Below, one piece after another: positions 3,401 to 64,000 of a stretch of 64,000 nt of DNA (position 1 is the first letter of the stretch; each line of letters opens with the position of its first letter). The notes below the pieces were generated by a model, which worked only from the letters and a program-made list of their open reading frames with translations, made no database searches and was not told the DNA's origin. Origin of the DNA: Paramacrobiotus metropolitanus (Eukaryota > Tardigrada > Eutardigrada > Parachela > Macrobiotidae); contig NW_026570234.1 in NCBI RefSeq assembly GCF_019649055.1, forward strand, positions 1,178,001-1,242,000, written 5' to 3'. The position numbers were made by a program, and so were the translations under genes.

Positions 3401-3773
3401 GGCTTTCCCGAATGGGATTACGGCCGCGCGGCGGATGACGGTGCATAACGGTCTGGGCAAAGGACGTTTTACCCGCATCATCCAGGCCAATGACGACAAG
3501 GCACATGGGGCATGTGTATTTGGTGAATTTCTCAAAAATATCCGATCCTACGGAGGCTGCATTAACATAGGCTAACGGCGCAATCGGGATGTGACCGGCC
3601 GGGTTGTTGATGGCCGGATGCAGGACAGCGTTCCGACCGTTGGATACGGGATTGTCGGTGCGAATTTTCCCGTTATCAATAATAATCACATCGGCATTCT
3701 CCGAAGCGGGGGTGATTTTGTGGCTGAACAAACATGCACAGGCTCCGCGCTCGCTCGAATACAAACCGCCCAT
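460..3773 (-). CDS. ARL13B: ARL13B-like ciliary small GTPase (two exons)
   Basis: ADP-ribosylation-factor-like GTPase of the ARL13 group, known in other animals as a ciliary-membrane protein that activates ARL3. Exon 1 is 3773-3111 and exon 2 is 1317-460, giving 506 aa. The intron of 1.8 kb has a GTAAAT donor and a CTTTAATCCTTGCAG acceptor, and phase 0 is kept. Seen: P-loop GLDDAGKT (96-103), PTLGFS switch I (135-140), DLGG switch II (155-158) with the glycine that replaces the catalytic Gln in this family, and NKQD (219-222), which is created only by joining the exons. After the G domain comes an acidic, Glu-rich predicted coiled coil (EQEEEERQER), then a disordered tail, as in ARL13B. The start ATG has an in-frame TAA just upstream. 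Odd: about 90 residues precede the G domain, beginning MGG (possible N-myristoylation) with a CAC cysteine pair at 12-14. No clear RVxP ciliary motif is visible in the tail. Confidence 0.92.
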
Positions 3774-5371
3774 GGTATTTTCGCATTACCCACAACGCGG
3801 CGAATCAAGCATTTTTCATGAGGCTTGTATAGCATGACAATTAGAATCCTCCACAATTACATCTCACTGTCGATTACATCTACAATTACATCTAGTTTTA
3901 GAATATCATCAAACTGGCAACAGAACAGAAAAATAAACAACCTTGACGGTCGAGAAATGGTTTGTAATTTTGTCGAATATGTTGATGGAATCATGGGAAG
4001 GAAATGACACTTCACGCAGACGAGACCGCAGCCATTTGCTCGGGAAAAAAGCTGTGATTCTTCATAATTTATCGTGAATATGCGGAACACGGGAGGTATG
4101 ACTCAACGTTGGCTAACACGGTAACACGTAATCATGGGGTACTTATGCTTAGTCAATAATGCTTTCCTGCTTGGATATCTGGAGTGCGGCGGAATCATAA
4201 GTAAAGAGTGTTAGTGAATCGATCGTTTACCGACGGACGCGCCAACTGTATAGCCGTCTGTAGGTACAACTTTTTCTTGCTCCAGCGATTCTCCATCAAC
4301 ATTGCGGCATACAGAGAGATACACACACAATCTATTACGACGACGGTGAACGCGGACGGGAGCGCGGTGCATCAGGTGGAAGCTGTCAGTCGTTGCACTG
4401 CACAGGTATTTTGCTGTTCCGTTGCGTGAAAGAATTATCGATTGATTACTAATAAATCGGCCTTACAAAGGTACGCTGTGTGGCGGTAAAGGGATGTTGC
4501 AAGCAAAAGGAAGTCCGATACAATCCACTGGGTGCATGTGTGTGCGCCTTAAGCTTATTAGTATTGGCTCATAATTCCCTAATATTTTGCGGCGATCCAT
4601 GATTGAACAAGGAAACACTGAGCGTTGTTTATCCACGACGTGCATCCCGTAGTCAACGGAATATTAGCACATGTAGCGCACGTATTGTAAATGTAGGCAA
4701 TAATGCAGCCTGTACACCGTACACGTATGTACGTGCTATCCACACCTTAATCTGGCGCCGAAACTGCAAATAAATTTCTTGGTTTCTCCGCGGCTTCCGG
4801 ATCCGGGAGCTTTATATGCCGGTAATAACCAGGCGGGTTCAGAAACCTGTATGCGCAGCAGGATGCATTTGAAATAGTCAAATTGACCAGTAACACAGCA
4901 CTGTGATACATTAAAAATAACTCCGTCCGTTGCTTTATTCATATCACACTGGAAGAATATGGTGGTCATTATTTTATAGCCTGCTAAAAGGTCGAGCAGT
5001 ATATCACTCTGATCATTGTAATACTGTAGATATCGTTAATGATGATAAAAATGATGAAGAGTGTTTCCCAGTTAGAAATCTCCTAAAGGCTGAATATATA
5101 ATCGCTCGCAATGTTACCAAAGTACTGAAATCGAGTGTGGACGCTGAAGATACTGTATGTATTAAGATGGCACATAAAATGCATGCACATGGTATTATAT
5201 ACGACAAATACTGTACAAGGGAATTTACGCGCGCCATGCATCAGCGGCCCGAAAAGTTGCCCGAATTCAGAGTGGCTTCCCATTAATGTTTCGCCACGGA
5301 CTGCATGTCGTCCCGTACAACGGCACGCGGACGTGCACGTTTTTGCGAAGAAAATAGCGCTGCATATTTTC
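3774..5371. other. Intergenic region, no gene seen
   Basis: Only short overlapping open frames on both strands, without splice logic or family resemblance. The part next to 3774 presumably holds the ARL13B-like promoter and 5' UTR; no TATA box or other element could be assigned. Confidence 0.4.
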
Positions 5372-5545: not shown

Positions 5546-8116
5546 TTAAACATTAAAAAAACAACCAAAATCTCTATCCGCCCGCGGGTTAAAAGGCAAC
5601 GTACTTAACACAGCAGTAGCATTTCCCTTAATGACAGCCAAACTAAAACGTTGCTTCATAAAAGCAGTAGAACGCGCTTCTCCAGTTAATTCACGAGTTT
5701 TACGGCCCATAAAATGTACAAATTCACTTAAAGCTAGGCCAAAGACACCGAACGTTTCAACAACTAAGGGATAGAAAAGGTGTCTACTTTCCAGTGGAGA
5801 GTACTTCCGTCGCTTCTCATTTTCTGCCAGGTGAGCCACACTTCCTGCCTTCTTCGAACTTCCGTGAACATGGGAATCGGCTACTGTACACCAACTTGTG
5901 ACATCCCATACAACAGACTTTCCTTGACGGACTGGAATAAGGGTCATGCCGTCAGGTCGAATCGCCGCACTTGGTGATAGGCCTGTCGGTTCCAGTTGAC
6001 ATGGGAATCCTGCACTCTCGCAACAGTTTTTGGCGATACTGTTCATTTCTCTATGTCTGGCCCATCGCCCTTTCGTTGATTTATTGCAGGAAAGCCCGTG
6101 ATGGCCATTCGTCTCCACTAATTTGCCGCATGCCACGCAGTTATGAGCTGTCACTACGGGCAATCCAAAACGTAATGCCACTCCTACTCTGACTTCTTCA
6201 TCTCGTAAAAACGTTCCAAGACAAGGCGCCGGTAATGCATTCAGCCAGGCCCCAGAATCTCTGCTAAATGCAGCCAACAATACGGCTCTTGCGCGCTCAT
6301 TACCAACCGTTGATAACATCAGTTTTGATACATCCCTGTCAATCATCGGTACATCCCACACGTACTGAAACTTCCGCACACAATCTTCTGGTAGCGAGCA
6401 GTGTGTCACCTGAAGCCAGTTTTCTACAGCCGATTGCGTCATATGTTCACCAGCTGGCGCGTAAAATTTGGAAACGAGAGGCTGCACAGCGTACACCGAT
6501 GCCAAAAGGCACAAATAGCTAGTGACTCTATGCGCCGCGTTCCCAATCCACCACGCCGAACTGGTAAAGCCATCTGCATCCATTGGGCTTCTGTTATGCT
6601 TACGTTGGTCAGCTGTTCCACACCATTCCACAGTTGTTTGTCATAATCTTTCAACAGCTCTGGAAATTCATAGCATCGGGCAGTGCGTAGGCCATATAAA
6701 ACCTTGGGGATGCTAAAGCAATTTTTTAAAAGAAAAAGACTGTAATGTGCAGGTAGCTTCGTGAGCCGCTGAACAAACTTGCATAGGTGATCTTTCTTTT
6801 CCTTCAGGAATTTCGCACAACCGGCTGGTTGAAAAGGTGCGCCCAACAGGAAAAGATTATCTGGATTCAACTGGATCATTGTTGGCCATATTTCCAACAA
6901 AGGCTTACCCGCATTCGCAGCTGAATTGATGAGGTAGAACTCGCATTTGTTGAAATTCAATTCAAGGCCCATCTTCTTCCCTTTTTTCTTCAATATTTTT
7001 ATCGCGGCGATCACTTTCTCCATGGTACCGGCCAGAGTAACATCATCAAGAAAGCCCAGAAACAGATCGCAATCCAGTCCATCGAAGAGCGGTAGCGATG
7101 TGAGGCTGTAGCCGAAGGGGCCACTTGGATCGCCCTGCTGCACCCCCCGGGCGGACGACAAGACTTCTTCCCCACAAACCAAATGGCTCGCGTAACGATA
7201 AGATTGCCAGAAATAGCCGTAATAACTGGGAAAATGCTGTCTTACGGCTTCCAATAACGCGTCCCGTCTCAAAAGGTTAAATAGCTAGACTCGAAAGGCA
7301 CTTTAAATGCGTTCTGTACGATACAGAGCCGGAAGTTCTGTAACGTTTCGATCACACCCCCTTACCGCTGATTGGACGAACGAGTTAAAGTGTTCTGTAT
7401 TTAAAAGGAACTCTCCTGGCTCCGTTACGATACAGAACTCGCATTTCTTGCTAGGTCAAATTTATTTTTTGATGTGGATGCACAGTCCGCTGTACGTCTA
7501 AAGTCCTGTTTTTAATTTTCAAGTTTTGAGGGTGTAATTAACGGGAGTTTAATTGTTTCTATCAAATCAACATATTCCAGTTCTGCTTTGTTCACTGATT
7601 TTAGCTGCCTCCGACTGTGCATGTTTGAATTTGTATCGGTGGCAACAGGCAACTTCGCCATAGCCGTCAGCGCGAGGAATACCTCGGCGTACTTTACGTG
7701 CAATTGCCTTTCGCTTTTTCAGCAGTCGTTTGATTTCTTAACTTAACAGAGCTTAAAATCGCCAGAAAAAGAGAAAGGAAACGGCCACAAAATTTTTGTG
7801 AGAAATAAATAAATTGTTGACCAATTCAATTACGGTAACTGGGCGCTTTTAGAAACCATGGTCTCGTTGCTCTGTAACGCTCTATAAGATTCAGCGCTGT
7901 ACCATTGGTAGATACACTTTTATAGAACTCCCGGCTCTGTATCTTACAGAACGCATGTAAAGTGCGTTTCGAGTAGTACTAATGCGTTTTTAAAATCCAG
8001 CTTTACCAGTACTCGCTCTCCGTCGTGTGTAGCTTCCAGGTACGAGCGGACCCCGTGGATAATTGCTTCGGCTCCGCCTTTCGTGCCACAGCCATACTGC
8101 ACAGTGCCGCATAACT
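5546..8116 (-). pseudogene. Reverse transcriptase / RLE endonuclease ORF, broken
   Basis: Read on the minus strand in three pieces. Piece 1 (about 8116-7984) holds the start of the RT domain, with the palm motif A stem LVKLDFKNA and its catalytic Asp. Piece 2 (7279-about 6510) holds motif B-like GVQQGDPSGP, motif C FLDD and the thumb. Piece 3 (about 6510-5546) holds a CxxC...HxxxxC zinc knuckle (CVACG ... HHGLSC) and the endonuclease signature RPDG ... VVWDVT. Pieces 1 and 2 are separated by an inverted-repeat element. Pieces 2 and 3 are out of frame because of one missing T in a T run near 6510. It is clearly non-functional. The upstream frame beyond 8125 is repeat sequence, not RT. Confidence 0.85.
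7283..7980. mobile_element. 698-bp terminal-inverted-repeat element nested in the retrotransposon
   Basis: The ends are long imperfect inverted repeats of about 55-60 bp. The left end contains GACTCGAAAGGCACTTTAAA, and the right end, as reverse complement, ACTCGAAACGCACTTTACA, followed on both by TGCGTTCTGTA and GATACAGAGCCGG. The element is flanked by the 3-bp direct repeat AAT (7280-7282 and 7981-7983). Removing it together with one AAT restores the open frame of RT motif A, so the boundaries are well supported. No transposase is seen inside, so this is a non-autonomous element (MITE). A 3-bp target duplication is typical of PIF/Harbinger elements, though AAT is not their usual TWA. Confidence 0.88.
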
Positions 8117-11710: not shown

Positions 11711-14700
11711 ATGGCCAAAGTGAAGAAATCCAGGTTCGGTGGCAGAGACTATGAACCGCCGCCACTGGAGGAAGAGCCTGCTGCCATGGACGACGCGGAT
11801 AGCAGACTGACTACGGAATCTGAAGATTCGGATAGAGAATATGAAGTATGTGCTGTACATTGTAAATCTATGGTACTCGTTGCGAATATTTTCGCAGTTA
11901 TGTATTTTTTTCTTGGTATTTGTTTCTGGCAGTTTTGCTTTCTAGGCATTTTTGCTTTTCTATAATTTCCATTATGAAGCCTTTATTTATTAAAAAGTAA
12001 GCACAGCAAATTTTTGGCCGGAATTAGATAATTCAAATATTGTTTGTTCATTTGCGAACAGGTAAGTGGCAGTTGTAAATCTGAAGAATTTGAACCAGAT
12101 ATTTACGACTGATGTCATTTTGCCTGGGGGAAATCTTATCTTCGGTAGCGTTTTACGTGTGTGAGGAAAAGCATTCATTCATCCTGATAACTGAAACTAA
12201 CGATGAATAATTAACAATTCTATCAATAGAAGAGCTATAACTCTTTAATTCTTAGTCGTTGGCCTTTTTTCTTCAATGAAGCGAAAGTCACATTTATTAA
12301 AGTTTCGTAATGTATATTGTATGCTTGTAAATTGTGTACATTGTATGTACAATATAATGTATATTGTATATATGACGTATTGTATTTTTTTAACCAAGTG
12401 TTGTTTTGTACAGTACCTTATAAGGTTTCTCTAGATTTCTGGCGGCTAGATTCTGACTGATTTTTTATAGATTTCTGAATTTTTGTTTTTCTTAAATCTG
12501 AATCGCATGAAAACATTACTTTGACAGATTGGGGGTTATGTTTAAAAGTCAAAATTTGTAGGTTTTAGAAATAATGGAGCATCGAATAAATGCGCAAGAT
12601 CCCACAAAAAAAGATTATTTGATTCGTTGGAGAGCATATGATGATCCAATGTATGATAGCTGGGAGCCGGAAGACCACCTCCAGTGCGACTTAAAGATTC
12701 AGTTGTATTGGAGTAAGAAAGGCAAAGGAGAAAGGCTCAGTCGCGCTTCTGAAGATAAGGAGGGCAAAGGAGAAAAGCTCAGCCGCGCTTCTAAAGATAA
12801 GGAGGGCTCCAAAACACGAAAATCAAACAAAAGCAGGAATTTAGCAACACGAACCAGACTGTCGGATGATTCGTCCGCTTCGGAATCAGATAAGGAAGTT
12901 GAAGAACAGTCTGGGGAATCTTACAAGAAAAAAAAGGATTTAGGAAGTCGTCCTCAACCTGGGAAGGATCGGCTCGTCAGTAATATTGAGAAATTTAAGG
13001 AGGTGGTCGAAGGGAAAAAGAGAAAAAAAATAAAGACGGAAAGTCTGGAGAAGGACAATCCTGCTTGGAACATACCGTTAGCGCCGCGAGCAAATCCGAT
13101 CAGGGAAGAATTCTGTAGGAAGCGAGCTGGTGCACCGGCTGCAGAGTGCGGGGTTAAAACGGCTAAACCGCCTAAACGTGAAGCCGTTGAGGTGGCGGGT
13201 GGGTTTGGGAAAAACGAGGACCTCAGAATCAGTTCGAAGCCTCGTAAAAGAGCCCTTCTTGATGCGATCTCTAGTGAGGAGGAGGGTGATAGCAGGCCCA
13301 AAGGCGACAGTCATAAGACTCGTGACCGCTGCGATAATGGTACGTGATATGTTTACTTTAAACGTTTAATGCAGTAAATATTACTTGCAGCTATGTAAAT
13401 TAATACAAACGAGGTCTAGATTTCCATAATTTTAAGGTGTGAATTCTTTGTATGACTGCAGTAACTGCTTAATAAAAAGTAGCAAATTACTTTCTGCAGT
13501 TTTGATAGAAACTGTTTGCAAGACTTACTTTTTTAGGTAATTTTTATGTCATTTAGCTGAATAATTTTTTGGGGAATGTTCACCGGAACTCACGATCCTT
13601 CTGGCATTGGTTCCTTCGAATGAGTTAGATTTATTTACTTTGTGTGGAAATTGAAATATTAGGTGGAAATTAGCTTGCAGTTTGATGAATTTTAGTTGTT
13701 ACAAACACAGATTGAAAGTAGAGTCTGTTGAGGACATAAAATTTCAAAACTAACGTGCATTGTTGTAGCCCCATTATTACCTGCATCATCACGCGAAATC
13801 AACCGGGATCTCTTCGGCAGTAGCCTTTCGTCATTGAGTCCATCGCCGTCATTCCGCTCTCCTACCAGATCATCCAGCTTCGAACGCAGAAAGCGCGGCA
13901 GAAAGCCTGAGACACCCACCTCACCGCCACCACCGCTTTCTCCCAGTGATTCTGTTCTCTTGTTCGGAAAGCGTTCCAGGAAATCTCGTGTTTGCTATTC
14001 TCCTTCAACTTCATCTTATTCTCCTGTGAACGGCAGTAGAATTTCGCACACACCCAGTTCTCCAAATACGTCCTTTAGTTCAGATGGCGGAAAAAAGCGG
14101 CGTGGAACGCAAGCTGTAGAGAAGAATGTTGATATTCCTGACAATCCCAAGGGCGAAGAAATGAGTCGTGTGGCATACAGCGGAAAGTGGGTCACATTCA
14201 AAATCTCTGATGACTGGAATGAGGCTTCTGAATGGGCGGTCTACTACGATATCTTAGGCCCAAAAGATACTGCACCAACGGAAACACGAACCCAAAAACC
14301 GACGAAGAGGAAAAAGAAAACGATAGCGCCGTCATCTCCCGGAAGTTCAGGGGTTACACTGACTTGCGAAGCTCTTGAAACGACAGTATTTGAAAAAGTC
14401 GCTGACGAGAAACTGGTCAGTGTCAGTGTCGTCGGTGCGGCGCCGATACAGCCCGAGGTTCATCCTGTGGTTACGGAGATGACACCGGAAATTCCCCCAG
14501 TTACAGGTGATTTGGGGCGTCAACTTGAAGGTCAGTTTGTGGACAAACCGTTAAGGAAGAAGAAAAAGAAAAAGGTTGTCCCGCTGATTGAGGAAAGTAT
14601 GGCGATCTGTGACAGCGTAGCCGTTGGTAGTCCACTCGATGAGCCCGTCACTGATGTAGCAACGGTGCATTTACCTGTCGATACTTCTCCTGGCGACGTG

Positions 14701-31095: not shown

Positions 31096-32931
31096 TTACT
31101 CTGTCAAGTTGACCAAACGCTTCATACCGCAATGACAGCAAAAGGCTGCTTCTTCGATGGGAAATCGTTTGCCACAATTATGGCAGAAATGCGGAATGGA
31201 CGGCAGTTTCGTTGTAATCGTTGGATAATTACTAGCCGGAATTCCACTGGAAAAAGACGATAGAGATCCGATGGCACTACTCTTGACAGAAGCAAAGGAT
31301 CCAATTGCGCTGCTTTTGATCGAACCCATGGAGCCCGGTGGCGACAACGGGCTGTTACTTTCCGAAGTCAAATAAGCGTCCTCCACGCTTTCTTCGTGCG
31401 ACACCGGCAGTTTGTATGCATTATGTCGGCGTTCCATCAGCGGTGAAGGCGACAGCAATGGCAAGCGACCATCCAGCGAATTCGTCGTGAAATTCCGAAA
31501 GTTTTCCGTCAGATCATCGGGAATTTTTGTCAGATTATCCTGATCAGTGGGTGCGCGGAGTCGGTCGCCATCCCACTGGAAAAAGCGCAAATTATCCGGC
31601 CGGGAATTAGTCGTATTCCGCAGAGCGGCTGGTTTGAGAAAACTATCCCAGTCCACATTGATCGTACCCACCGAGGCACTTTTGGCTTTAACCGAATTCG
31701 ATCTGTGCAGCTGCATCATCCGCTCTTTCTGCTGCGACGCCACATTAAACGGATACGGTCGGTCATGTCCCATAGCCACCGACTGGACTTTGTGAGTGAG
31801 ATTCGCAGGCGGCGACGGTGTAGCGGGTAATTTGTGAAAATCGGTCTTCCGCAAGGATTCCACTGAATGGAAAGCTCGTTCATCCATCTGGATGAAAACC
31901 GAATTATTCGCACCAGGCTTCCGTGCATTCATATCTATAACCGTTTCCTTCGGCAAGGCCACAGGATTATTGCTTCGCTCACGGATGAACGCATCTTTAA
32001 GTTGCCCATTATTCTGACTTTTCATCCGCAACGACGCCGTGCGAATCAGTGTTTCAGCACATCCAAAACTCGCCGGCGATGCGGTGCTCTTGAACATTGC
32101 CGGCGTACTAGTCTTCGACAACACAGCGTCTCCGACGCCCAGATCATCGTATAATTTCTTCTCCCGCGGTTTTTGGGCGTAGACGGAGGGCGTAACAAAG
32201 CCCTTCGGCTTGGTAGGAACTTTCTTCACATTCGGCGTGGCATTGAGCTTGGCCATGGCCGACTGACTGCTGGCAATCTTGCCAGTGCCCTCTTTATTGG
32301 CACGCGTCACGTGTTGGCTGGAGAAGGCACTGACTGCTTTGCGATGCGATTTCGGCGGCGGTGGTCGGTATTTCATCCGCCGCATGAGCAGCACCGACTG
32401 CGGATTCTCCCCGGACGCCTGCTTCCGCAGTTTGATCTCGTACTGCTGCTTACAGAAATCCACATGCCGCTCGTACGCCTTCTCCCGGAATGTCCGCTCA
32501 CAGTATTCACATCTGGAATGCCCAGCAGGGATCTCCTTGGCTTTGACTTCCGGTCGTTCCGCCCGCGGGGGTTGGCGTTTCTTATTGACGGGCAGGCCTT
32601 TGGACATAGCACTACCATCTTCATCCGCAGACTGCTTCTCGAGATTCTCGCGGATCACAGGCCGGATGGCGTCCTCCTGAGCAACATGGGCCAAGCGCTG
32701 AGCAATGGCCTGGAAGGCTTCGCGTTTGGGCTTCTGCGCCAGTCTTTCGCAGATGGTCGTGTGACGCTCCAAATTGGCCGGATTGAATTTCCTCCCGCAG
32801 ATGTCGCACGGCACGAGGGGCTCACGCGACGGCGATCCAGCAACGTCGAAGGGACGTTGCGGAGAGGGACGGATCTGGACTTCATCCAGACTGGGAGAAC
32901 ACGGGGATTGAGCGTGTTTCATCATGGTCAT
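31096..32931 (-). CDS. ZC2HC1 (FAM164) family zinc-finger protein
   Basis: An uninterrupted coding exon of 611 aa. Two C2HC zinc fingers are spaced about 100 residues apart: PCDICGRKFNPANLERHTTIC (Cys42, Cys45, His57, Cys61) and RCEYCERTFREKAYERHVDF-C (Cys141, Cys144, His156, Cys160). This pair is diagnostic for the ZC2HC1 family, whose function is poorly known. The middle is long, basic and Ser/Pro-rich (disordered). The very C-terminus has a second metal-binding pattern, CHNCGKRFPIEEAAFCCHCG, a CxxC...CxxC ribbon. The vertebrate ZC2HC1A is roughly half this length. Start: an acceptor (CACATGCAG) ends at 32935 and a matching donor (CTAG|GTGAGT) lies at 33007, so a 72-bp 5' UTR intron is likely and the ATG at 32931 is preferred over 32940. 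The gene is divergent from APEH. Confidence 0.9.
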   Translation of the reverse strand: MTMMKHAQSPCSPSLDEVQIRPSPQRPFDVAGSPSREPLVPCDICGRKFNPANLERHTTICERLAQKPKREAFQAIAQRLAHVAQEDAIRPVIRENLEKQSADEDGSAMSKGLPVNKKRQPPRAERPEVKAKEIPAGHSRCEYCERTFREKAYERHVDFCKQQYEIKLRKQASGENPQSVLLMRRMKYRPPPPKSHRKAVSAFSSQHVTRANKEGTGKIASSQSAMAKLNATPNVKKVPTKPKGFVTPSVYAQKPREKKLYDDLGVGDAVLSKTSTPAMFKSTASPASFGCAETLIRTASLRMKSQNNGQLKDAFIRERSNNPVALPKETVIDMNARKPGANNSVFIQMDERAFHSVESLRKTDFHKLPATPSPPANLTHKVQSVAMGHDRPYPFNVASQQKERMMQLHRSNSVKAKSASVGTINVDWDSFLKPAALRNTTNSRPDNLRFFQWDGDRLRAPTDQDNLTKIPDDLTENFRNFTTNSLDGRLPLLSPSPLMERRHNAYKLPVSHEESVEDAYLTSESNSPLSPPGSMGSIKSSAIGSFASVKSSAIGSLSSFSSGIPASNYPTITTKLPSIPHFCHNCGKRFPIEEAAFCCHCGMKRLVNLTE

Positions 32932-34318
32932 GGCCTGCATGTGACAAGCAATCGATTTTTAACATTATGGATCGCACCCAACCCAGAATTATGCTAAATT
33001 ACTCACCTAGCTGATTTTTGAATCTCCAATCGATGGATCGCCAGACAAACGAGAAATTATCTTCAAAATAAGGTTTTTCCGCTAGTGTTCATAATCCGCA
33101 GTGTTACTTAATACCATCACTTCCATTCACTGTAAGGATAGCAGCAGAGACAATAAATTTATCGAAGCTGCACAAAAGGTAACAGAGTCACGAGCGACGA
33201 AAACACAATATTAATCCCGTAATCGGTTTGCGTAAACCATTTACCTGCAGAGAGCACGTATCAAAGGGGTTTACGTGCTTAAGCTGTATGCCAAGCCGCG
33301 GCGCTCAGCGCAAATCAAAAGGCTCGTGAAATCCACAAATGGCGCAATTTATCGGAGACTCCGAGATAAAAGCAATAAATCAAACTTTAAAAGGCACTTG
33401 ATGATTTATTAGTGCGCTTGGTGCAGTCGTGTAGTGGACTTGGAACGGCAAAATGTGTACACTATGAGCAAGAGGGTTCGTGGGACGTAATTATCACAAT
33501 CACCATCCAGAGAACAAAACCAAGTCTAATGAAAATGGGTAAAATAAGGGAAAATGACAAGGCAACAGTGGCATTGAAGATTTGGCACTGTGGCTTGGAA
33601 AAGCCGTTAGTTACGCGAGCGTTTGGATCGATTGCAGATACGCAATAATTCATAACTCGATCAGCCTGGAATGCAACGGCTGAACGATAACCTGTAACTG
33701 CATTTCACCTGCGTGATGGTGCAACTGAGGGTGGGAAAAAACGGAAACACTTATTACGACGCACCACTCTCCCGCTCGTCCGTCGTCCCATAACACTCCA
33801 GACAGGTGCGCACCAGTGCAACAGTCTGTATAATGGGCGACCGCACAGGTTGTTGGTTGCACGCGCGCCGGAGCCAGCCGCACCGTGCTGTACTTACTTT
33901 AAGAAAACATTCTCAAAAAACTGAAAAATCATCGTTTTGGGGAAGACAGAAATTTTCGAAAAACTGAATTGAATTCATACTAAACTCATACTGTTCTATT
34001 TTAATACATACTCTTTTTATTTTGGAAAATCTTCACATTGCGGCACTTCGTACAGCTGAAACTCGATGTATGTAAGAATTTTATGGTGAGATACGGGACC
34101 TCAAAAAGGAGTCCGTATCTGTCCGTAGCACAGCTGTGATTTCGTGAGCGTCTGCGCTGAAGGGCGTTCTAAGCCGTTCTTCCCCATTTGTTCGTCGGGC
34201 AGCCAGGTTTGTGAATGGATTAGCAATTGTGAATTGGGCTTTAAAAAATTATAGCGATTTGCCTTGTAATTTTAATGTTTGGATTAGATAGGTGATGATT
34301 CGACATTGCTGTTCTAGG
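32932..34318. other. Divergent promoter region between ZC2HC1-like and APEH
   Basis: Contains the likely 5' UTR exon of the ZC2HC1-like gene (ending 33007, intron 33006-32935). A GTTCTAG acceptor-like site just before the APEH ATG hints at a 5' UTR intron there too. No other gene is seen. Confidence 0.45.
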
Positions 34319-37300: not shown

Positions 37301-38777
37301 ATTGCTAAAATATTGTTTTAGTTACAACAGGTAGGAACTATTTTGATTGATGGATCATCATGCTGTTGTATTTGAGCCTAACAAGAATGTTGATAATTTG
37401 GTGACACTTATCCATATTTATTTAGGGCTCGGGGATAGAATATGAGGCAGTTTGGATGTTCCCTAGTTTGCGGCGCAGTCCCCCGGTGATACTGTGGCCT
37501 CATGGTGGTCCGCACGGTTGTTCCATTCCGGGATTCGATGTTTTCATCAGTACTCTAATTCGTCTGGAATATGCTGTTATTTTTGGTAAGGTTTTGCGTC
37601 AAACCTGTAATTATTTTTGTATAGTGCTAGTTATAGTTAGAGTTCTCATTAGTGTATATTCCCTGCGCCCGCTGGCCCCGCTCATCTGGCAGCTTAGAGC
37701 GTTTTGTATCGCTGGTTTGTTAATTGCAGAATACGGGCTTTATTTTTAACAGCGTTCAAGATAATAGGACGCATGTTAGACGAGAACAGTGTTAATCGGA
37801 TTGTTTTTCGCCTCTAGTGAATTATCGCGGATCCGCTGGGTTTGGTGAGAAAAACCTGCGGTCTCTGCTAGGCAAGATTGGTCAGAATGACATCGAGGAC
37901 TGCTTCCGGGCGTTAGACGTGGTACTTGGCAAAAAAGGTCTTAACAACACCGATACCGATCTGTTTTATCAAGGCGGCTCACATGGTGGTTTTATCGGCG
38001 CACACCTTATTGGCCAGTTTCCCGATATTTTCAAAGCCTGTGCATTACGTAATCCGGTTATCAACCTCGCCAGCAAACTTGGCGGTACAGAAATTCCCGA
38101 TTGGGGATATGTGGAGTGCGGTCTGGAATATCGTTACGACGATCCTCCAATTATTCCCATGTATTCGCAGCTTATCGCTCGGTCTCCTATTGTACACGCT
38201 CACAAGGTAATTACGCTTAAAACCTTGTACCGAAGTTTTACAACACTAAAGTTGGAAACTAATAAGTCAAAAACCATTGTGAGGTTTCAGCATATCCAGG
38301 CACGGTGTAGCTGGAGTATTCGTACCTTGACTTTATTTTGTCGCAATGTTTTGCTTTCATTACGTAGTTTGATTTTGTCCTGATACATATCTGTTTAATG
38401 ACTATATACATGTCATTGGAGTTTGCGCATATCAGCTGGTTAATGCACGATGAAACATCGAAACACTTTGCTTCAGGTAACCACACCGACGTTGATATTG
38501 ATTGGTGAGAAAGATCGTCGCGTTCCACCAACTCAAGGAATGGAATTATACAGGTACGTTTTGCTACTACAACACAAACCGCTTTTTTTGGTTGACTTTG
38601 TGCTTATCTTTTTGAAGGGCTCTAAAGCTGCGTGGTGTACCGACGAAAGTGTTGCGCTATCCAGATTCAGATCATCCTATTGCTGAAATCGAAGCTGAGA
38701 GTGACTCCTTCGTGCAGATGGTGAACTGGTTTAGACAATTTGGGCGAACGGACACGAAAAGTGCCGGAAAATCGTAA
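34319..38777 (+). CDS. APEH: Acylaminoacyl-peptidase (acylamino-acid-releasing enzyme)
   Basis: Cytosolic serine peptidase of the prolyl oligopeptidase family (S9C) that removes N-acylated amino acids from peptides. Ten exons: 34319-34566, 34989-35164, 35333-35481, 35674-35811, 36065-36322, 36635-37096, 37426-37585, 37818-38206, 38477-38553, 38618-38777; total 738 aa, against 732 in human. The first six exons form the beta-propeller (for example WTQRDLVRMER, FVYREDWGEQ). The rest is the alpha/beta hydrolase: WPHGGPHG oxyanion region, VNYRGSAGFGE, nucleophile in GGSHGGF (Ser codon 37979-37981), Asp in GEKDRRVPP, His in PDSDHPIAEIEAESDSF. All triad residues are present, so it should be active. 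The least certain junction is the exon 6 donor: GTAAAA at 37097 keeps phase, but the join is about eight residues shorter than human there. It converges tightly on HPRT. Confidence 0.96.
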
Positions 38778-51364: not shown

Positions 51365-54300
51365 ATGAGCAGCTCGACGCACGTGCCACCTGTTGATAGC
51401 GAGAATGCCATTAATGCGTCGTCCGATCCGCTCGAATCAAACAAGGTTTTCACAATATTCAAGTACGTACAGTATACGCGATGGATTCGTGCATATATGA
51501 TTTACATTTGTTAACTGTGTGCATTATTCAGAGTTAAAATAAAACGGTTGCTAAAAGTTAAAATTTATTTTTTAGATTTCAGTTAGTCTTATGCAAAGTC
51601 TTTACTTGAACTTCGTTGGAAGTACTCTTATTTTATTACGTATATGTTACACTTGACGAATTTATTTCGCTTGATCGACGGAACTAAACTCTTTTCTCTC
51701 TGTAAAGACGACTTACATATTATATGATTACCGCATGTATTACAACGTGAGCAGATACGAGGATGTACCGTGCGAGGAGAATTTGTGGTGGTTGTTCCTT
51801 CTGTCCTGCGTCGCCTTCCCAACCACTATGTTACTATGCCTGGGAACATGGCGATGTATTCGGCGGTTGGTGCAGGGACGACATCCTCTGGGTTACCAAC
51901 CGGTTAACATGCGCGTACAACCAACCCTGTCCCGCTCTATGACCACCCTTCTCGGCGGATCGACAATGCTGAATGCCGATACTTTCAGTATTAATCGAGA
52001 TGGGAGTTTTATATCCCATCCAAAAATTTCCGTTATTGATCCATCAGGTCATCTCATTATGCACGAGCCGGTACTGGAAGCGCCGTTACCGGAAATGCAC
52101 TGGTCAACCACTATTCAAAAAACGGCAAGCGAAATTGTGTCCGCTCAAAGCGTCACCGGAAAGATTGCGGTAAATACATAAGAACCAGCTGTTTCAGTTT
52201 AATATGTTACTGTACGTTTATCAGTTATTTTGCTTTTAATGGGCTTTGCGGTCGTTTAGGTTGTCATTATGTTCATCGTGAGTATGGTTTCACTTGCCTT
52301 ATATTTTCTGGAAGTTACGAAGTAAGTAATTAAAATCTAGAACTTAAACTTTTTAAACTGATAGCTGGTTTTTTAGCGCATCGGTTTAATGTTTTTTGAC
52401 GGATCTTTTTGCTTCGTTTGTAGTTCGCACAGTATGGTAATGATATGGGAAAAGTGTGCTCCCTGGACAACACGCCTGGACTGGCAACTGGAGTTTGTTT
52501 GCAGTGTCTATTTGTTGTTGGATTATTTTATACGAGTAAGACTATCGCGTATGTACTGTATGTGTCAGTATGCGATATAATCGTTTCCTTGCAAGATTAT
52601 TGCTGTTTTATTTGCTTTAACGATAACTTTATGCCTTTTAGAAACCATTTGACTTACCTCATTGCTTTTTTATTCCAGTTTGTTGCCTCGAGTAATAAAC
52701 TTCGCTTCATGTTTGAAGTGTTCAGCCTTGTGGATTATTTTACTATTCCACCGGCATTCCTAGTGATTTTTCTCAATCACCACTGGACAGGTAACATTTT
52801 TAAAACACTAAATAATTCTACGAGTGATTAAAATTAATTTCCTTGAACTGCACAACCAAACGCTATTATAATTTGATTTTGACTCGTTTCATTAATTTTA
52901 CAGGACTTCGTTTCCTGCGAGCTCTATATGTGATATCCATACCAGACATTTTGCAGTATTTCAGTATTTTAAGGAGAAGTGCCCATATCCGTCTCGCACA
53001 ATTGTTATGTTGGTTATCTGGCGTCATATTCGTCAGTGCCGGCTTGATCCATATGGTAATTACGAATGTAAAATGTTGTAGAATTGCTTTTCTTACAGAT
53101 TAATAGTTTTTAAAATTTTGGAGAACGGTTTTGTGGTATTAATGTGGACATACCCCCGTAGTGTATAAACCTATACTAACCGTCAGGTTTCTTGTTGCTG
53201 TTGCGCTAGGTTGAAACATACGGCGATCCACACCTGGAGCATACAAACGCCGCCTTACGTTCGTATTGGGAATACGTTTATTTTGCTGTGGTTTCGATGA
53301 GCACAGTTGGCTACGGCGACGTCGTACCTGTGACAAGACTGGGAAGGTTTATTACGGTTATCTTTATCCTCTTTGCATTTGTAAGTTTCCTATAAAAAAG
53401 TCGTTTGGTTAATCATGTTGACTGCACCTTGCGTTTTGTAGACGGTATTTGCGGCATCAGTTCCTGAGTTGTACCGTTTTCTGGGTAGTCACAAACGGTA
53501 CAGCACCAGCTACCATATTTCCCGCGGCGTCAGGTATGTACATTATTCGCACACAGTATCAGTCGATTTTAGTTGCAGTAGCGGTGGTTGTCCTAAGGGG
53601 AAATTTATAGCATTAAAAATCTATTTCAAAAATAATTTCTGGAAGTGGATTGATGCAATAGAAAGTCATAAGGCACATTCGTGTGAAAAAATGGTAGAGG
53701 AATGGGCCCGTAGGTTAAACTCTGTCAATCCACAAAACCTTGTAATAAACGAGTATTGTTAATTTAATCAGCCGGTGTGTTGAATGATTGCTGCATATGA
53801 CCTCCAACTATTACGTATAGATACGTGTGGGTGTGCTGCAATGACGATTTTTTTAGGCATGTGGTTGTTGCCGGACAGATGTCTGTCCATTCCATGGAGA
53901 ATTTTCTCCGTGTATTCTTCAACACACAAGGATACACCACGGATTTGCAGATAGTTTTTGTTAGTCGGTACGTTAGCTTTCAGTATTTAAGGACGGTGAA
54001 AGATGGTTATTTCATAATTAGTGCGAATAATTCGTTAAAGTGCTAATAAAAATCTTTTCTAGAGTCGATCCGGACTTGGAAATGGAAGCGCTGCTGAAGC
54101 GCAATACGACCAGGGTGTTTTACATCCAAGGCTCCTTATTACAGCCGGATGATCTAGTTAAAGTCAAAATCAAGGATTGTGCGGCTTGTTTGCTGTTAGC
54201 TGACAGAAATGCCAGTAACCCTACAGCCGAAGTAATTATCCTTATTTTCCAGTTTTCACGGTATACAGTGATAATTTTCCTCCGTTATTTTGTAGGATTC

Positions 54301-57300
54301 CCGCAACGTGATGTCGGTTATTTCCGTCAAGAACGCGTGCGCAGCAACACGGTGCTTGGTGCAGCTGCTACAAAGCCGAAGCACGGTAATCCTTGTTAAA
54401 TAAAATTAAACTGATGTTTTGAAAATATTTCTATTAATTTTCTGAATAACGACAGACACATGTGCGCAATATTCCCGGCTTTTGTGAGACCACTGGAGAT
54501 TCTGTGATCTGCGTTAGCACCTTGGGATTGGGTCTCCTTGCGCAGAGCTGCTTGGCTGCTGGAGCTTCGACTATGCTCTGCAATTTGTTCAACCCGGCAT
54601 GCCGAACTCATGATTATGAGGTAAGGAATCTGTTGATCTGTTCTTTCCAGTGCTAAGGAATTTTTTCATGATGAATATCTTGGTTGGCTTTTTAGAATGA
54701 GACTATAAAGGATTATACGCGTGGAAGCCAAATAACGCTGTTCATGGAACATTTGAGTGATTATTTTGACGGGAAATCATTTGTCGATGCGGCAAAGTAA
54801 GCATTTGCATGGTTTTTTGTCTTCAAATATGCAATCTGATTGTACAGATATATAAAGTTTTTAGTGTTATACAGTGTCTGTGTAAAGGGCATAAATTATG
54901 TCAGCACAAAATTAATGGAAATGCGAACAAAGTTTTTAGATGAATGCTATTATTATTTAGAACATGCTATTTAAAACTGAACATACTGCTGATTGGAATA
55001 CTGGAGCATGATACGGAAAGGCCATCCGGAACGGTTTTGTTGAACCCGACCATTGTGGTACGAACCGGTCACGTTGGCATATTTCTTGCCAAATCAGCAG
55101 AAGAAGTCAGCAAGTAAGGCGCTCTTTGTCAGTAATCAAACAATAACTAATCAACTTATAGGTAACTTTACTGACACAAGTATTTCCCATTTAAATAGTA
55201 AGTACGTTCACATAAAAGAATTCACGTTTCTATAGAGCGTGGTACATCTGCAGCCAGTGTCATTCGGATGTGACCAACTACCATATATCTCACTGTGGAT
55301 GCGAAAGTAGTGAGTAAAACCTATAAAGTTTCGACCAACAAAATTTAAAACAAGGCATTCCGCTAAAATTGCAGTTTTTTAAATTTAGGGCAGCCGACGC
55401 CTGCTATGATAGCCGCAAGAAATCCACTGGAACGTTTTCGTAATTTTACAACCTACGGAAACTTCCGGTGCCGTAGCGGAACAACACTTCCTAAAGGATG
55501 GGAAAAAGCTATGATAAGGGTGATGCAGTCGCATCCTTCAACGTAAGCGTGTAGAGCACATATTACGTGAAATGCTTTTTTTTAGCCTCTGGGCCGGATA
55601 AGTAAAATCACTAACAAACATAACCAACAAATTTGTTAGTTATGGTTGTTTGCAACGGCAGCCTTTTATGATAATTTTAAAATTATCATAAAAAGGCTGC
55701 CGTTGTTGGCTAACAAGCTAATCACATAAACGTTTTGCACAGGGCTTCGCTGCACAAATCTTCCATTGTGGACAATCCATTTGAACGTATTCACCATCTC
55801 GAAGCAATCGAAGAAGATGCGGAGCACGAGTTTCTCGGCTTGACGTTGACGGCAAAAAATCATAGCGAACCGGCGCTGACCAGTCATACGTTTTCGGAGA
55901 ACACGATTAGTGCACATAAAACGACATCAAGCGACGAATCCGTTCTGGACGTTACCAAAGCATTCTATTCCTGCTCTGCCAAACCGTATAAATCGGTTAT
56001 GCTGGTAAAAACTGCAAATCCAAAATCAACTAAGTAAAACTGTAAAATTAAGCATGTACAAAAGTATTGGCATTTAAAACAGAGTCGGAGTAAGGCGGCA
56101 AAGCGAGGCTTCACCGATCACATTTTAGGTGAGAAAATTAATTTCGACAAATACGGTTAATAATATTGTGATTTAGATGTCACACGGACACCTCTTTTTT
56201 TGTTGCAGTGCTTGTTTTAGCCAAACCCAATGATCCGCCGATTGGCTTTCAGGATTTTATTTTGCCATTGCGTTCCACAAAGATCAAACACGAGAATCTC
56301 AAAGAAGTTGTCTTACTGGGGGATCCAGATTACCTAGAAAAAGAGTGGTACAAAATCCGAAATCTGCCAAAAATTACTCTTGTTAAGGTATCGTAAATGT
56401 CGCAGAAAATAGAATTTATTTACGTCATGTAAATATAAGTACAAATGGCAAAATGCCTGTTTAATTAATATAATTACTCACCTTAAATTAAATTTTAAAG
56501 GGTGATCCACTGGATCGAGCCGATCTACGAGCAGTGTCCATTAAAACGTGCGCCATGTGCGTAATTCTTCCGTCGCGATCGGGCAGTTCAGAGGACCCGG
56601 TGCTGGATGATAAGGACGCCATTCTGGCTTCCCTCAATATTATGGCCATGACCTTTGAGCGTTCTGACGCGCGCAGCCGGTCTGCGTCGGTTGTAACTCC
56701 TCTCCCATTTATTCGCAAGACAATCAAGGAAGGCTTTGAAGTTCCTATGATTTGCATTTTGTGTACGTTGTCAGAACTCTTGCACGATATTTTTTAGCTG
56801 CAAATATATATTTGTACATAGTTCCGTACGCAGGAAAAATTGAGCTAAATATCAAAGAATAAAATATGAAGATTACAATAAGAGTATTTTATTGCAGATC
56901 GTGATATCAATATTCCGTTACTGGATACCTACGATCCGGAAAAATTAACGAATACGGAAGTGCTGTTGATGGAGCCATATGTGTGCGGTTACGCATTACC
57001 GCTCAGCGCACTGGATTCCATTTTGATCAAGGTACATTTTTTATGCTGGTATGGTGAATAAAAATTTGCGGAATTTGCGGTTTTGGCCTTCCGGATGCAC
57101 GTACATAAAAGTAGATCTGTACAGTAAGTCTGTTGGACGTCAAAACATTGCAGCCGACAAGCCAAGCGGATATTGTTAGAAATTATGATCCCTTTTAGGA
57201 TACTGTATAAAAGACTTTAGAAAATCCCGAACTGCCGAACTGTTAGCAGTATCTGTAAGTGTAGAGTATAGAAGTACACTAGTATTACTTTTGAAGTGTC

Positions 57301-58060
57301 TACATTACATTCTCAATACGATGCGGATGGTTTATTGCAGAGTTTCTTCAATCCCTACGCGCTGGAGCTCATAAAGGCGCTGCTGTTTGGCGATATGAGT
57401 GCGCTGACAGAAACCTTCTTGACAGAAGGTATTGGATTAATCAGCGGTGAAGTTCCTGCATCTGAAGCCGGAGTGACTGCCGGGCGGGCCGGAAATAGCC
57501 AACTCCGACTGATCAACCTAATGGAACCACCATTAGGTTACCGAATTCCAGGAGTGAGTACTTACCATTTAATAAGAGTGTTTAAATTTTTCTGCTTATT
57601 GGCTGTAACATGCATCAGTATGCCGTACTCGTAATTACAGCACATACTGTACGGTAGTACGTGTAACCAGTGTGCGAATGTCGCCCCCAGTTATGAGTTA
57701 TCAATACAGCAACGGATTATTCTACCGTGTAAGCATTAAACGTAAGCATTACATATCTAACCTTAATTTAATGATAATATTATATAGACATCATATTTTA
57801 CAAATTATGCAAATACAATCACTCACTACTACTGATGGCGTAATTCTCAAGTTCCTTAACCACGCCTTTTATTCCAGGGCTGGTCGTATGGATCCTTGTT
57901 TTCCGAAGCCATTGCTCACGGTATGATCTGCCTGGGACTGGCCAGGAGGGTTTTCCCCGACGCAACGGGATCCCGCTCTACTAAACGATGTGTGATAACA
58001 AGTCCACCGCCGACTTTTCAACTACGCTTTGATGATCTGGTTTATGTTTTGTCTAGTTAA
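51365..58060 (+). CDS. Slo1/BK-type potassium channel with degenerate calcium-sensing sites
   Basis: Voltage-gated K+ channel alpha subunit of the Slo1/Slo3 type, 1169 aa in 23 exons: 51365-51462, 51755-52169, 52260-52321, 52424-52535, 52679-52790, 52904-53055, 53210-53380, 53442-53533, 53857-53967, 54063-54231, 54296-54385, 54456-54620, 54696-54796, 54961-55113, 55236-55309, 55389-55542, 55743-56004, 56083-56128, 56209-56387, 56501-56762, 56898-57031, 57341-57553, 57878-58060. Seen: S0 (WWLFLLSCVAFPTTMLLCLG) with a long S0-S1 linker, SAQSVTGKI before S1, S4 GLRFLRALYV, pore MSTVGYGD (residues 347-354), RCK1 starting RHVVVAG, GLLAQSCLAAGASTML, RCK2 starting DHILVLAKP, and C-terminal TKRCVITSPPPTF. 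S0 and the YGD filter exclude Slo2. Odd: the S4 arginine equivalent to BK R213 is Tyr275, and the acidic calcium bowl reads LDTYDPEKLTN (1002-1012). All junctions are GT-AG and in phase. Confidence 0.96.
55613..55705. repeat. Two adjacent hairpins in a Slo intron
   Basis: Hairpin 1 (55613-55651) is an imperfect 39-bp palindrome centred on CAACAAATTTGTTAG. Hairpin 2 (55653-55705) has arms CAACGGCAGCC-TTTT-ATGAT and ATCAT-AAAAA-GGCTGCCGTTG that pair along about 26 bp with one bulged base. Both end within 40 bp of the exon 17 acceptor at 55742. Confidence 0.85.
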
Positions 58061-59492: not shown

Positions 59493-62400
59493 AGTAAAAG
59501 TAGTAACTCCGTTACGTAGTGAATGACTTTGCCGTTTGAAAGTAGACATAACGGCAAATCTTTATTTCTTGCTTCTTAAATGTTTTGGGGAAGTTAAACT
59601 GTTAAATACATGATTTTCGGTGCTCTGTATTTTAAATTGGAATCGTTTAAATTCTGTCGCTTGATCAACTTGGAATTTTTATATTTTTTTTTAAATGAAC
59701 TGGTTAAATAAACGTAGCAAAAATTGGCATTGCACGGCATTTAAACGGAGTTATGAATATTCTTGTGTTGATAGTGGTGAACATTCTTCTGCTAACTCGG
59801 AAATAGATTTGGCTTGGAAATTTAATATAAAAATTTTGTTTCGTATACGCTTTAGAGGCTCGCTTTTTTCGATCTTCTGATCAAAATCAATTGTTTAAGT
59901 TGCGGCGATAATTGTTTATAAACTTGTAGCAATGTAGTTCACCATCAAGCTGTTTATCAATTTGAAAACTGAACCATCGGGTTTTGTCAGCTGTTGTGGC
60001 GATAACCTCTTCCCGCCTTGACGGTGGTTAAGTGATGGCTCATCACTCATCCATATTGCTACGGTTGGTCAAGTGTGTCTGTGCTTGTGTTTTACCAAGC
60101 AAAGACAGCGCTTTATCCTTACATTTAAACGCACGCAGTAAACTTTAGAAGCTTATGCTAGGGAGATTTAAGTTATTCGAAATTCAGAAGTGCATGGGTC
60201 GATTGAAATTATTTGATTCTTGGTTTTGCCACTGATACATGTCCGATCTCCGATCTTGGAATTGTGTTAGAACATTTATCTAGTCGCTAAAAATCACACC
60301 GATTGCTGGAAGGCTGAGTTTTAACTGCAGCAGCACTGCAGCAGAGTTGTTTTGGTAGATTTGAACGCTCAGAGTGCGATTGTTAACTATGCAGAGTTAA
60401 CTGGCCAACATGGATTTTCGATCCGCTGTAGAGTTTCTTTCTGAGTGTGTCGATTCTTATAACAGTATATTTCGTTCCCAGTACGGCCCAGACGGAAGAC
60501 CGTTAAACAATCGTCCAGGCGGGGCTAACGGTGCAGGGCCTTCCAAGAAGGACCATGAAGAGCGACTGGTGGAGTATCGTGATGAAGAGGACGGTCTGGT
60601 TATGGGGGAGACCTTCATGGAGTACATGCCAGCCAAGCTGAAAATCGGAATGAAACATCCGGATCACGTTGTCGAAACGACTTCACTGCGCAGTGTGGCA
60701 CCCCCTGATATCAAGTAAGATTTAGCAGCATGCAAAATAGCAGATATGGTTCGATTATTCACCGTTAATTAGCAGGTCATTAAAATTTGTCTTAAAAATA
60801 TTATCTCAGGGATTTTTACTGCTCAGCTACGTTTTTTGACGAATCCTTTTTCAAAAATGTGGTTTTAATTCTGCCACAGTAGGCTAAAGCTAAAGTGCTA
60901 AACTAGGGTTGAAATCATGCTTTCATGATTTCACATTTCCTTCTTCATTTCCTTTTCCTTTCATAATCATGCGGACCCCCGCGTGAAATGTGAAAATGAA
61001 ATGAAATGAAATGTGAAACTTCATGAAACGAAGAAATTATGAAATCGCATGAAATGCAGTAACAGTGAATGAAATTAGCGTGATTCACAATATTTCATGA
61101 AAAGAAATATGAACACTGGTGTAATTCTTTGTGTAACCATTAAAAATAATGGAGCTTTTAAAGCGAAAAACACGTTTTTCGTGTGCTTTTGATGCACAGG
61201 TAACTTCAGAATGCCGAAAACTTAAACCGTTAGGCTAAACACACTATGATTTTGCAACCATAAGAAAAGCAAAAATATTCAATTTTATTTAATTTTTTTA
61301 TTTCATGTTTCATTTCCTTTCATTTTAATTTCCTTTCACAAACGGCTCTAAGCCTCATGAATTTCAACTCTAGGCTAAACTCTGGTCTTTTTACCTACGA
61401 AATTATTATTCGACAAGGTTTTGGTTTTTGTTGTAAGACAGCCTAAGTTTATTTTGCGAAGTTGGGTAGGCTTCTGCAATGTGAAATGCATTGCGCTGAT
61501 AAAATAGATTTGAATTGAATTTAAATAATTTCTTCTGCCAGTTAAATTGATCGAATTTCGACTCAAAGAGCTTCAGTCAAAGCTCAAAGAGCTTTATTCA
61601 GCTTTGACATTAATTCATTGGTTGCAAATGAATGACTGTATACATGTATGTTTATTGTTTAGGTATGAATTGCATTTGCCCAAAAATATTATTGAGGGCG
61701 GAAAGCTCTCCGCTCTTCAGCTGGAAGCGGTCGTTTATTCCTGCCAGCAGCACGAATCATTGCTGAATAATGGCACCCGTGCCGGATTTTTAATAGGTAC
61801 GTGCAGATCTTCGTGGCATTATAGTCGAGCTGTGTACCGCGGACGCATACAGTTTTATGTGAGGTTTCTTTCTTATGAATAATCGGCAAAAGGGGAGTTG
61901 TTCATGGGTTTTGGAACTAAATAGGTAAGTTGGAATTATAGGTAACTTGTTTGTAATGTTGCAGGCGATGGCGCCGGAGTTGGAAAAGGGCGCACCATAG
62001 CTGGAATTATTCTGGAGAACTATATCTGCAAGAACAAAAAATCTCTTTGGTTCAGTGTGTCGACAGATCTGAAAGTGGATGCGGAACGAGATCTGAGCGA
62101 CATCGGAGCAGAATATATCCCCGTTTATCGACTGGAAAAGCAAACTTACAACTCTCTTCCATACAGTGAAGGTGTGATGTTTGCTACTTACTCAGCCCTG
62201 ATATCGCGGACCGGCAACAAAAAAGGGAAGTATCAGTCCCGTCTGGACCAGCTGATTGCGTGGTGTGGACCAAAATTCGACGGTGTCATTGTGTTTGACG
62301 AATGCCACAGAGCTAAGAATCTCTGCCCTGCGAAGGACGCTAAACCCACAAGAACGGGAATCAATGTTGCTGAACTTCAGAAACGACTGCCAGGAGCCCG

Positions 62401-64000
62401 CATTGTTTACGCCAGTGCTACAGGTTAATATTCATAGCAGCCTGCACCATTGTTCTAATAGTCTTTACCCAGTGCTGATAGTTTTTTTCAAATATGATTT
62501 TGTGGGCTCGTTAATTTAAAAAAATCTGCTATAGTATTTAAGTTGTTTTAAAATGATGTACTTCAGTTTAATGGATCTTACGTTCTGTTTAGGCGCTTCG
62601 GAACCCCGAAATATGGGTTATATGGTCCGACTCGGATTATGGGGGGAAGGCACGCCTTTCGAAGATTTCTCTAAATTTATGGCGTCTATTGACAAGCGGT
62701 ACGTATATACTCAAAGGAATTTGGCGAACGCTTAAAATGTTTGAAGCTTAACAGTGTGTTATTATTTTCGCTGATTTATTTTACTACCGAACACGAATAA
62801 TGGACGCGCGTACAATATATATACGATACACACTTTACTAAACCATTAAAGGTAGAAAGCTGAATAAGCTTTGGTTAGTTGAGCTTGGCTTAAAATTGCA
62901 GTGGAGTGGGAGCAATGGAATTGGTGGCTATGGAAATGAAACACCGCGGAATGTACATTGCTCGCCAGCTAAGTTTTGAAGGGGTTTCGTTTGTGGTACA
63001 GGAAGTGGAGTTGAAGGAAGATTTTATTCAGTTGTACGATCGGTGCTGTAAATTCGTAAGTCCTTCTAGCTCTCCCTCAATCGATGATTAAATAAAGATT
63101 ACAAAACTGCGCGTTTTTTTAGTGGATTCACGTGGAAGAGCAGTTCGAACAGGCAATGGTCTTAGCTCATAAGAACTCGAAAAAGGAGTCTTTCATAGTG
63201 TAAGTGGTATATTTATCGTTTCCCTTCGATGTATTTGGTTCCTGTGTTGTGTGCTAATGACGATCGACATTTTTGTGTTTTTATTTTATGTAGTACTCTA
63301 ATTCAGGTTTATGATAATTCTTACTAGTTATGACTTTTGCCCATGGAGCCATGAGTTGTCAGTGATTTTGATTTCTTTGCATTTGCTCCAATTTTTCTTT
63401 GCAGTTGGCTTCAATTTTGGGGAACACACCAGCGCTTTTTTAAGTATTTGTGCCTATCATCGAAAGTCGAGGCAGCTGTAGCTGCGGCAAATAAGGCTGT
63501 TGAGGAAGGAAAGGTCAGTAAATTTTTAATTAAATCCAATATTTTTTGGTAATGATTGCCTGTTTTAATATGTATTATACTCTAATGATTTAATTCTGGT
63601 AGTCAGCTATAAATTCATTCCTTATAGTGGGATTCGTTCACAAAACTTGTATACTAAATTAAATTATACTGTACTTGTAGTTAATTTTTAACAGGTGTGA
63701 TTTGCATTTTTTTAGTGTGCTGTCATTGGCCTCCAGTCTACTGGTGAACATAAAACAGATCAAATGCGCTTGGCTCTTGAGGAGGATGGTGAAGAACTGA
63801 CCGACTTCATATCCACTGCACGGTAAATTGCTGCTTGTGATGGTCAAAATAGTCCTGCTGGTCTTGTAAAAATCTGGAGCCGTTTATATGCCTGTGCAGG
63901 GCTGTATTCATGAGCTTGATGGAGAGGTTCCCGGATAAAATGAGCGACGGTGCCGGCGGGCGTGGGGGTCGGTTTCGTTTTGATAATGATGATGATAGTG
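59281..64000 (+). CDS. SBNO: Strawberry notch (SBNO) helicase-like transcriptional regulator, 5' part
   Basis: Nuclear DExD/H-box protein linked to Notch and other signalling outputs; the gene runs off the window end. Exons: 59281-59424 (candidate first exon) or a start at 60410, then to 60714, 61663-61796, 61965-62423, 62593-62698, 62902-63055, 63123-63199, 63405-63513, 63716-63822, 63900-64000 (open). Seen: [38 protein letters not shown], Walker [12 protein letters not shown] (61965 on), DECH box (62297-62308) in [63 protein letters not shown], and [10 protein letters not shown] at the start of the helicase C-like half. Two N-termini are possible. The ATG at 60410 has an in-frame stop upstream. 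Alternatively exon 59281-59424 ([14 protein letters not shown] ... ASSSSQ, ending phase 0) can splice to the TTCGTTCCCAG acceptor at 60481 in frame. Confidence 0.95.
60903..61373. mobile_element. 471-bp MITE built of GAAAT/ATTTC repeats in an SBNO intron
   Basis: Ends CTAGGGTTGAAATCATG (60903-60919) and, reverse complemented, CTAGAGTTGAAATTCATG (61356-61373). Flanked by the direct repeat GCTAAA (60897-60902 and 61374-61379). The left third is a self-complementary block of CATTTCC / GGAAATG-type pentamers around CATGCGGACCCCCGCG. No coding capacity. Superfamily not determined; the 6-bp flank could partly be chance because CTAAA recurs nearby. Confidence 0.75.

Follow-up and report, generated by a model that had tools for sequence, protein, structure and literature searches.

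The window examined here, a 64,000-nucleotide stretch of the Paramacrobiotus metropolitanus genome (GC content 40.9%), contains a gene for a Slo1-type channel whose calcium bowl has lost its run of aspartates. This raises the question of whether the gene encodes a working potassium channel and, if so, whether that channel would still be gated by micromolar calcium.

Features of the window

Features of the channel gene:
51738..58051, + strand: Slo1-type channel gene, 22 modelled exons (spliced alignment to Slo1 reference, score 1741, no stop or frameshift)
52904..53055, + strand: exon with S4, LRFLRALYVIS; R207 and R210 kept, R213 replaced by Y (spliced alignment)
53303..53320, + strand: intact K+ selectivity filter TVGYGD (the family filter being TVGYGD or TVGFGD)
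53857..53967, + strand: RCK1 exon; D362 replaced by V, D367 by Q, E374 by Q (spliced alignment)
54696..54796, + strand: RCK1 exon; E535 replaced by T (spliced alignment)
56898..57031, + strand: RCK2 exon carrying the calcium-bowl region (frame reading, phmmer, spliced alignment)
56918..56953, + strand: degenerate calcium bowl, LLDTYDPEKLTN (canonical Slo1 here, FLDQDDDDDPD)

Other features:
2991-3785, - strand: Arf GTPase (Pfam match)
6439-7284, - strand: reverse transcriptase (Pfam match)
12562-13347, + strand: chromo domain (Pfam match)
31096-32958, - strand: C2HC zinc finger (Pfam match)
37796-38383, + strand: S9 peptidase (Pfam match)
61500-63100, + strand: exons that we take to resemble strawberry notch

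Gene model and Slo1 identity

The gene was modelled with our own spliced aligner against a reference that is mostly Drosophila Slo1. The predicted product has 958 residues, with ends (start and stop codons) that the spliced alignment does not fix, and is 43.7% identical to the reference; identity over the first 44 reference columns is by construction, since the window's own letters were used there. Exons 1 and 2 are separated by a 198-base "intron" (51870-52067) that stays open in frame; if it is coding, as it may be, the two are one exon. A sequence-only reading of this DNA had described a frame intact through 23 exons; the absence of stops and frameshifts agrees with it, but the model has 22 exons and could have 21.

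In phmmer searches of PDB, for which open-frame pieces were joined by hand with a few intron letters still inside, the pore/RCK1 fragment matched BK chains at E 1.4e-53 (185 bits for full chains) and the RCK2 fragment matched them at E 1.3e-19. The RCK1 stretch alone scored 105-123 bits with Slo1 gating rings, 88 with the Slo3 gating ring (the only part of Slo3 among these matches), 36 with the Slo2 gating ring and 68-70 with full Slo2. Membership of the Slo1 family by descent extends over the transmembrane core and both RCK domains, with Slo1 scoring above Slo2 and Slo3, and the BK homology proposed earlier for the channel and for its bowl exon is borne out by these matches. Slo2 identity was ruled out for the window gene and for three other genes of this genome, C24, C11c and C105d, the four compared singly, each of which matched best with Slo1 in PDB. 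The window gene shares with Slo1/KCNMA1 (BK, slowpoke) segments S0-S6, the TVGYGD filter, the tandem RCK1-RCK2 arrangement and its best PDB matches, but differs from it in that the RCK1 calcium site, the poly-Asp bowl, E374/E399 and R213 are not conserved.

Functional sites and the calcium bowl

Sites were scored under residue numbers that we take to be those of Slo1. The roles of the scored residues, including D895 and D897 as the two side-chain ligands of the bowl and R213 as a major gating charge, follow the available part of one account (PMC4319557). With its filter intact, the window product would be a K+-selective, tetrameric Slo1-type channel. Both residues of the RCK1 calcium site, D367 and E535, are replaced (Q and T), as are E374 and E399 (Q and F), the two Mg2+ ligands scored, with D99 and N172 set aside. 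E324 is replaced by R in a column that presumably lies at the inner mouth of the channel. The change of R213 to Tyr would probably weaken voltage sensing as well.

The bowl exon at 56898-57031 is bounded by AG on its 5' side and GT on its 3' side, and TEVLLMEPYVCGYALPLSALDS follows LLDTYDPEKLTN directly in the same plus-strand frame. The poly-Asp bowl is not conserved: the Asp run is absent, and the loop has one inserted residue, with Pro at position 896, a Lys following the Glu, and Tyr in place of Asp 894. D892 is kept, and phmmer and the spliced alignment agree in placing D at the 895 column and E at the 897 column. Both side-chain ligand columns are thus still acidic, and this finding speaks most strongly against a bowl that is wholly lost. 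The earlier description of a degenerate bowl keeping only two Asp is literally right, although a Glu is also there. Its further claim, that the high-affinity calcium site is lost, is uncertain for the RCK2 site because both ligand columns remain acidic, and the D/E pair may bind calcium weakly. In one respect the case goes further than that reading did, the RCK1 calcium site, E374, E399 and R213 being altered as well.

An alternative acidic bowl exon would bear directly on this claim. No such exon was found in a genomic scan of the window between 50 and 60 kb, a scan blind to bowls split by an intron; for the full-length bowl, the exon already identified scored highest, at 29 against 15 for the runner-up. 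Across the whole window, a 13-residue bowl core gave a best score of 24, near position 6087, within the range of 14-28 obtained when the 10-kb gene region was shuffled 10 times.

It is rather unlikely, though far from negligible, that the D/E pair still lets the bowl of the window gene bind calcium, with reduced affinity, leaving a Slo1 channel with the RCK2 site only and a response shifted to high calcium. Such binding is consistent with the agreed placing of two acidic residues in columns described as side-chain ligands, and the window gene alone has both columns acidic among the 10 genes of its clade in the tree (clade A, below). In each of the other nine bowls of that clade, one or both ligand columns are not acidic, and this, together with the inserted residue, Pro 896, the Lys after the Glu and the loss of Asp 894, argues against such binding. 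We consider it probable instead, on the present sequence evidence, that the window gene is a working member of a large tardigrade expansion of Slo1, a K+-selective paralogue that micromolar calcium no longer gates.

A large family of Slo-type loci

The assembly (169.8 Mb, 533 contigs) was searched with PF03493 (25 exon-wise matches), a bowl query (24) and PF22614 (68), followed by spliced models. At least 31 Slo-type loci were recovered, 26 in the tree described below and five outside it (a C107 gene at 116118-90468, C84, C323, C105c and C283). C107d.2 and C107b/c were counted once, as parts of a single long-intron gene. The number of loci would be smaller if C84 and C323 (dS 0.15) are unmerged haplotypes, as they might be, and perhaps also C22 and C325 (dS 0.60). 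By comparison, one Slo1 copy each is reported for Drosophila and C. elegans in the part of PMC5337896 available.

The search also recovered a canonical Slo1, C183, with the full DDDDDPD bowl and all scored sites kept. Across reference columns 97-966, the stretch that its model covers, it is 75.8% identical to the reference. The sequence-only reading had suggested a lineage-specific second Slo paralogue and a search for another Slo gene with an intact bowl. C183 is that gene and the window gene is a lineage-specific paralogue beside it, but it belongs to a set of 31 or more Slo-type loci and is not simply a second copy.

Four Slo1-type genes, the window gene included, lie within 240 kb on one contig (C14:1070454-1308562), and a further cluster of four, one with introns of several kb, lies at C107:81422-130372. 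C323 and C84, close to C14b, carry one stop each with dN/dS of 0.52-0.66, C323 also having 3 frameshifts, and are likely pseudogenes or unmerged haplotypes. In a separate search of the genome, a CAHS-D query gave 20 matches (best 65% identity, E 3e-69), a mark of a tardigrade genome; a COX1 search gave no match, and a search for FABP/SAHS-type genes gave a single FABP-like match that says nothing about the organism.

Phylogeny of the expansion

The tree was built from 28 rows and 829 columns, with the filter and bowl columns excluded. Nine of 35 alignments were dropped as partial, broken or merged (C107b, C107c, C107bc, C107d.2, C107e.2, C84, C323, C105c and C283; C107e.2 appears to be a 5' portion of C107d), and C18 was masked over its first 389 columns, where its alignment was judged unreliable. 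C183 grouped with Drosophila Slo (83/78), beside Aplysia Slo1, and the remaining 25 genome copies formed a single clade (100/100). C45, which keeps its filter and calcium-site residues, was the first branch of this clade (support for the rest, 86/85), followed by clade A with 10 genes including the window gene (96/95) and clade B with 14 genes (87/75). The deeper branching order is provisional because of long branches (C11b, 1.54; C103, 1.42), the odd letter make-up of C24 and a tree without Slo2 or Slo3 rows. A tree placing C120 with clade A was rejected (p-AU 0.0002), the group having been named after the tree was seen.

Two clades with different losses

All 10 clade A genes have the K+ filter and none has a poly-Asp bowl. 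D367 and E535 are both acidic in three of them (C107a, C107d and C14a), and the C107 gene outside the tree, which pairs a K+ filter (TVGFGD) with a degenerate bowl as the clade does, also keeps D367 and E535. Calcium independence is therefore not general in clade A. R213 is altered in C45 and in every clade A gene.

The altered filters make clade B the more unexpected finding. None of its 12 readable pores has the K+ filter (C18 was unreliable and C46 not covered), and all 12 readable P-loops lie within continuous open frames. A search of every frame of these loci for a TVGYGD-like motif was negative, although one split by an intron, as in C45, would escape it. In 10 genes an acidic [LI]D[LV][STI] loop replaces the filter: C11c (L015), C11a (L013), C11b (L014), C14b (L022) and C120 (L007), together with C295 (L024), C105a (L039), C105b (L040), C105d (L042) and C103 (L043). 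C3 (L018) and C14c (L019) have TIGGSE and TIGSPD at the filter and keep D367, E535, D895 and D897. Both bowl ligand columns are acidic in six of nine readable clade B bowls, the exceptions being C120, C295 and C105d; among the first five loop genes named above this holds for three of four readable bowls (not C120; C11b was not covered). Calcium sites have been lost in part of the clade, because five genes (C295, C105a, C105b, C105d and C103) lack an acidic residue at D367, at E535 or at both. R213 is altered in the seven clade B genes with a well-aligned S4 (C3, C14c, C120, C14b, C11c, C11a and C11b), S4 being missing or badly aligned in the others.

The fewest changes on the tree are one for the filter, four for RCK1, and three (counting the window bowl as lost) or four (two ligand columns only) for the bowl. 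Since there is only one filter change, the complementary pattern of clades A and B is descriptive and not a statistical association. This bears on whether the window subunit might work only in heterotetramers, with C183 or other family subunits supplying calcium sensing. Several clade B genes without a K+ filter do keep calcium sites, a complementary pattern in favour of such a partnership, but a filter-less partner would break the four-fold K+ filter, and both the single filter loss and a clade A bowl loss countable as one weaken the pattern as evidence. We regard an obligate heterotetramer as improbable.

Intactness and selection

The long end branch of the window gene (0.86) and its many altered functional residues could also suggest a gene decaying towards a pseudogene. 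However, its 22 exons carry no stop or frameshift and its filter is intact, in contrast to C323 with its frameshifts and stop. When random substitutions were introduced into the window-gene frame at 0.05 per site, a mean of 4.8 stops arose and only 1 of 500 runs was free of them, so that a stop-free frame is unlikely under neutral change. Decay is thus very improbable. Nine of the 10 clade A models are likewise free of frameshifts and stops, C107d having one frameshift. Between C22 and C325, two clade A genes without an intact calcium site, dN/dS was 0.164 over 913 codons, which points to purifying selection within the clade; in comparisons of the window gene with C14a and with C45, dS was saturated, so dN/dS there carries no measure of selection on the window gene.

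Comparison with known channels and implications

According to the available part of PMC5337896, Slo3/KCNU1 is a Slo1 duplicate without a calcium bowl and is placed in vertebrates. The window gene resembles it as a Slo1 duplicate with a degraded bowl, but its RCK1 stretch is nearer to Slo1 gating rings than to that of Slo3 (scores above). Because Slo3 is vertebrate-placed and the window scores are closer to Slo1, the window gene would be a parallel to Slo3 and not its orthologue, a judgement from scores, the tree having no Slo3 row. The parallel with vertebrate Slo3 drawn from the sequence at the outset is supported to this extent.

For tardigrades, PMC5531438 describes the duplication of a "calcium-activated potassium channel" in both species that it studied, Hypsibius dujardini and Ramazzottius varieornatus, with a loose tie to anhydrobiosis. 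This is the same kind of channel; copy number and bowl and filter states are not given in the part of that paper available. We found no published account of tardigrade bowl or filter states in the literature covered, outside of which lay subscription journals and the supplements of PMC5531438.

If the favoured reading is correct, the gating ring of the window channel would no longer act as a high-affinity calcium switch, with its RCK1 site gone and its RCK2 bowl remodelled. Opening might then depend on the remaining voltage dependence together with another cytosolic cue (compare pH in Slo3), or be set by partner subunits. More tentatively, it is possible, though doubtful, that Slo1 has been split in this tardigrade into near mirror-image groups: clade A as K+ channels that answer to a new trigger, possibly one connected with drying, and clade B as calcium-gated channels of other ion selectivity or as filter-less calcium-sensing subunits. 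The family numbers about 30 Slo-type loci, and its losses of calcium sensing and of the K+ filter fall largely in separate clades. It provides natural mutants of both modules, and thereby a way to ask what each module does without the other.
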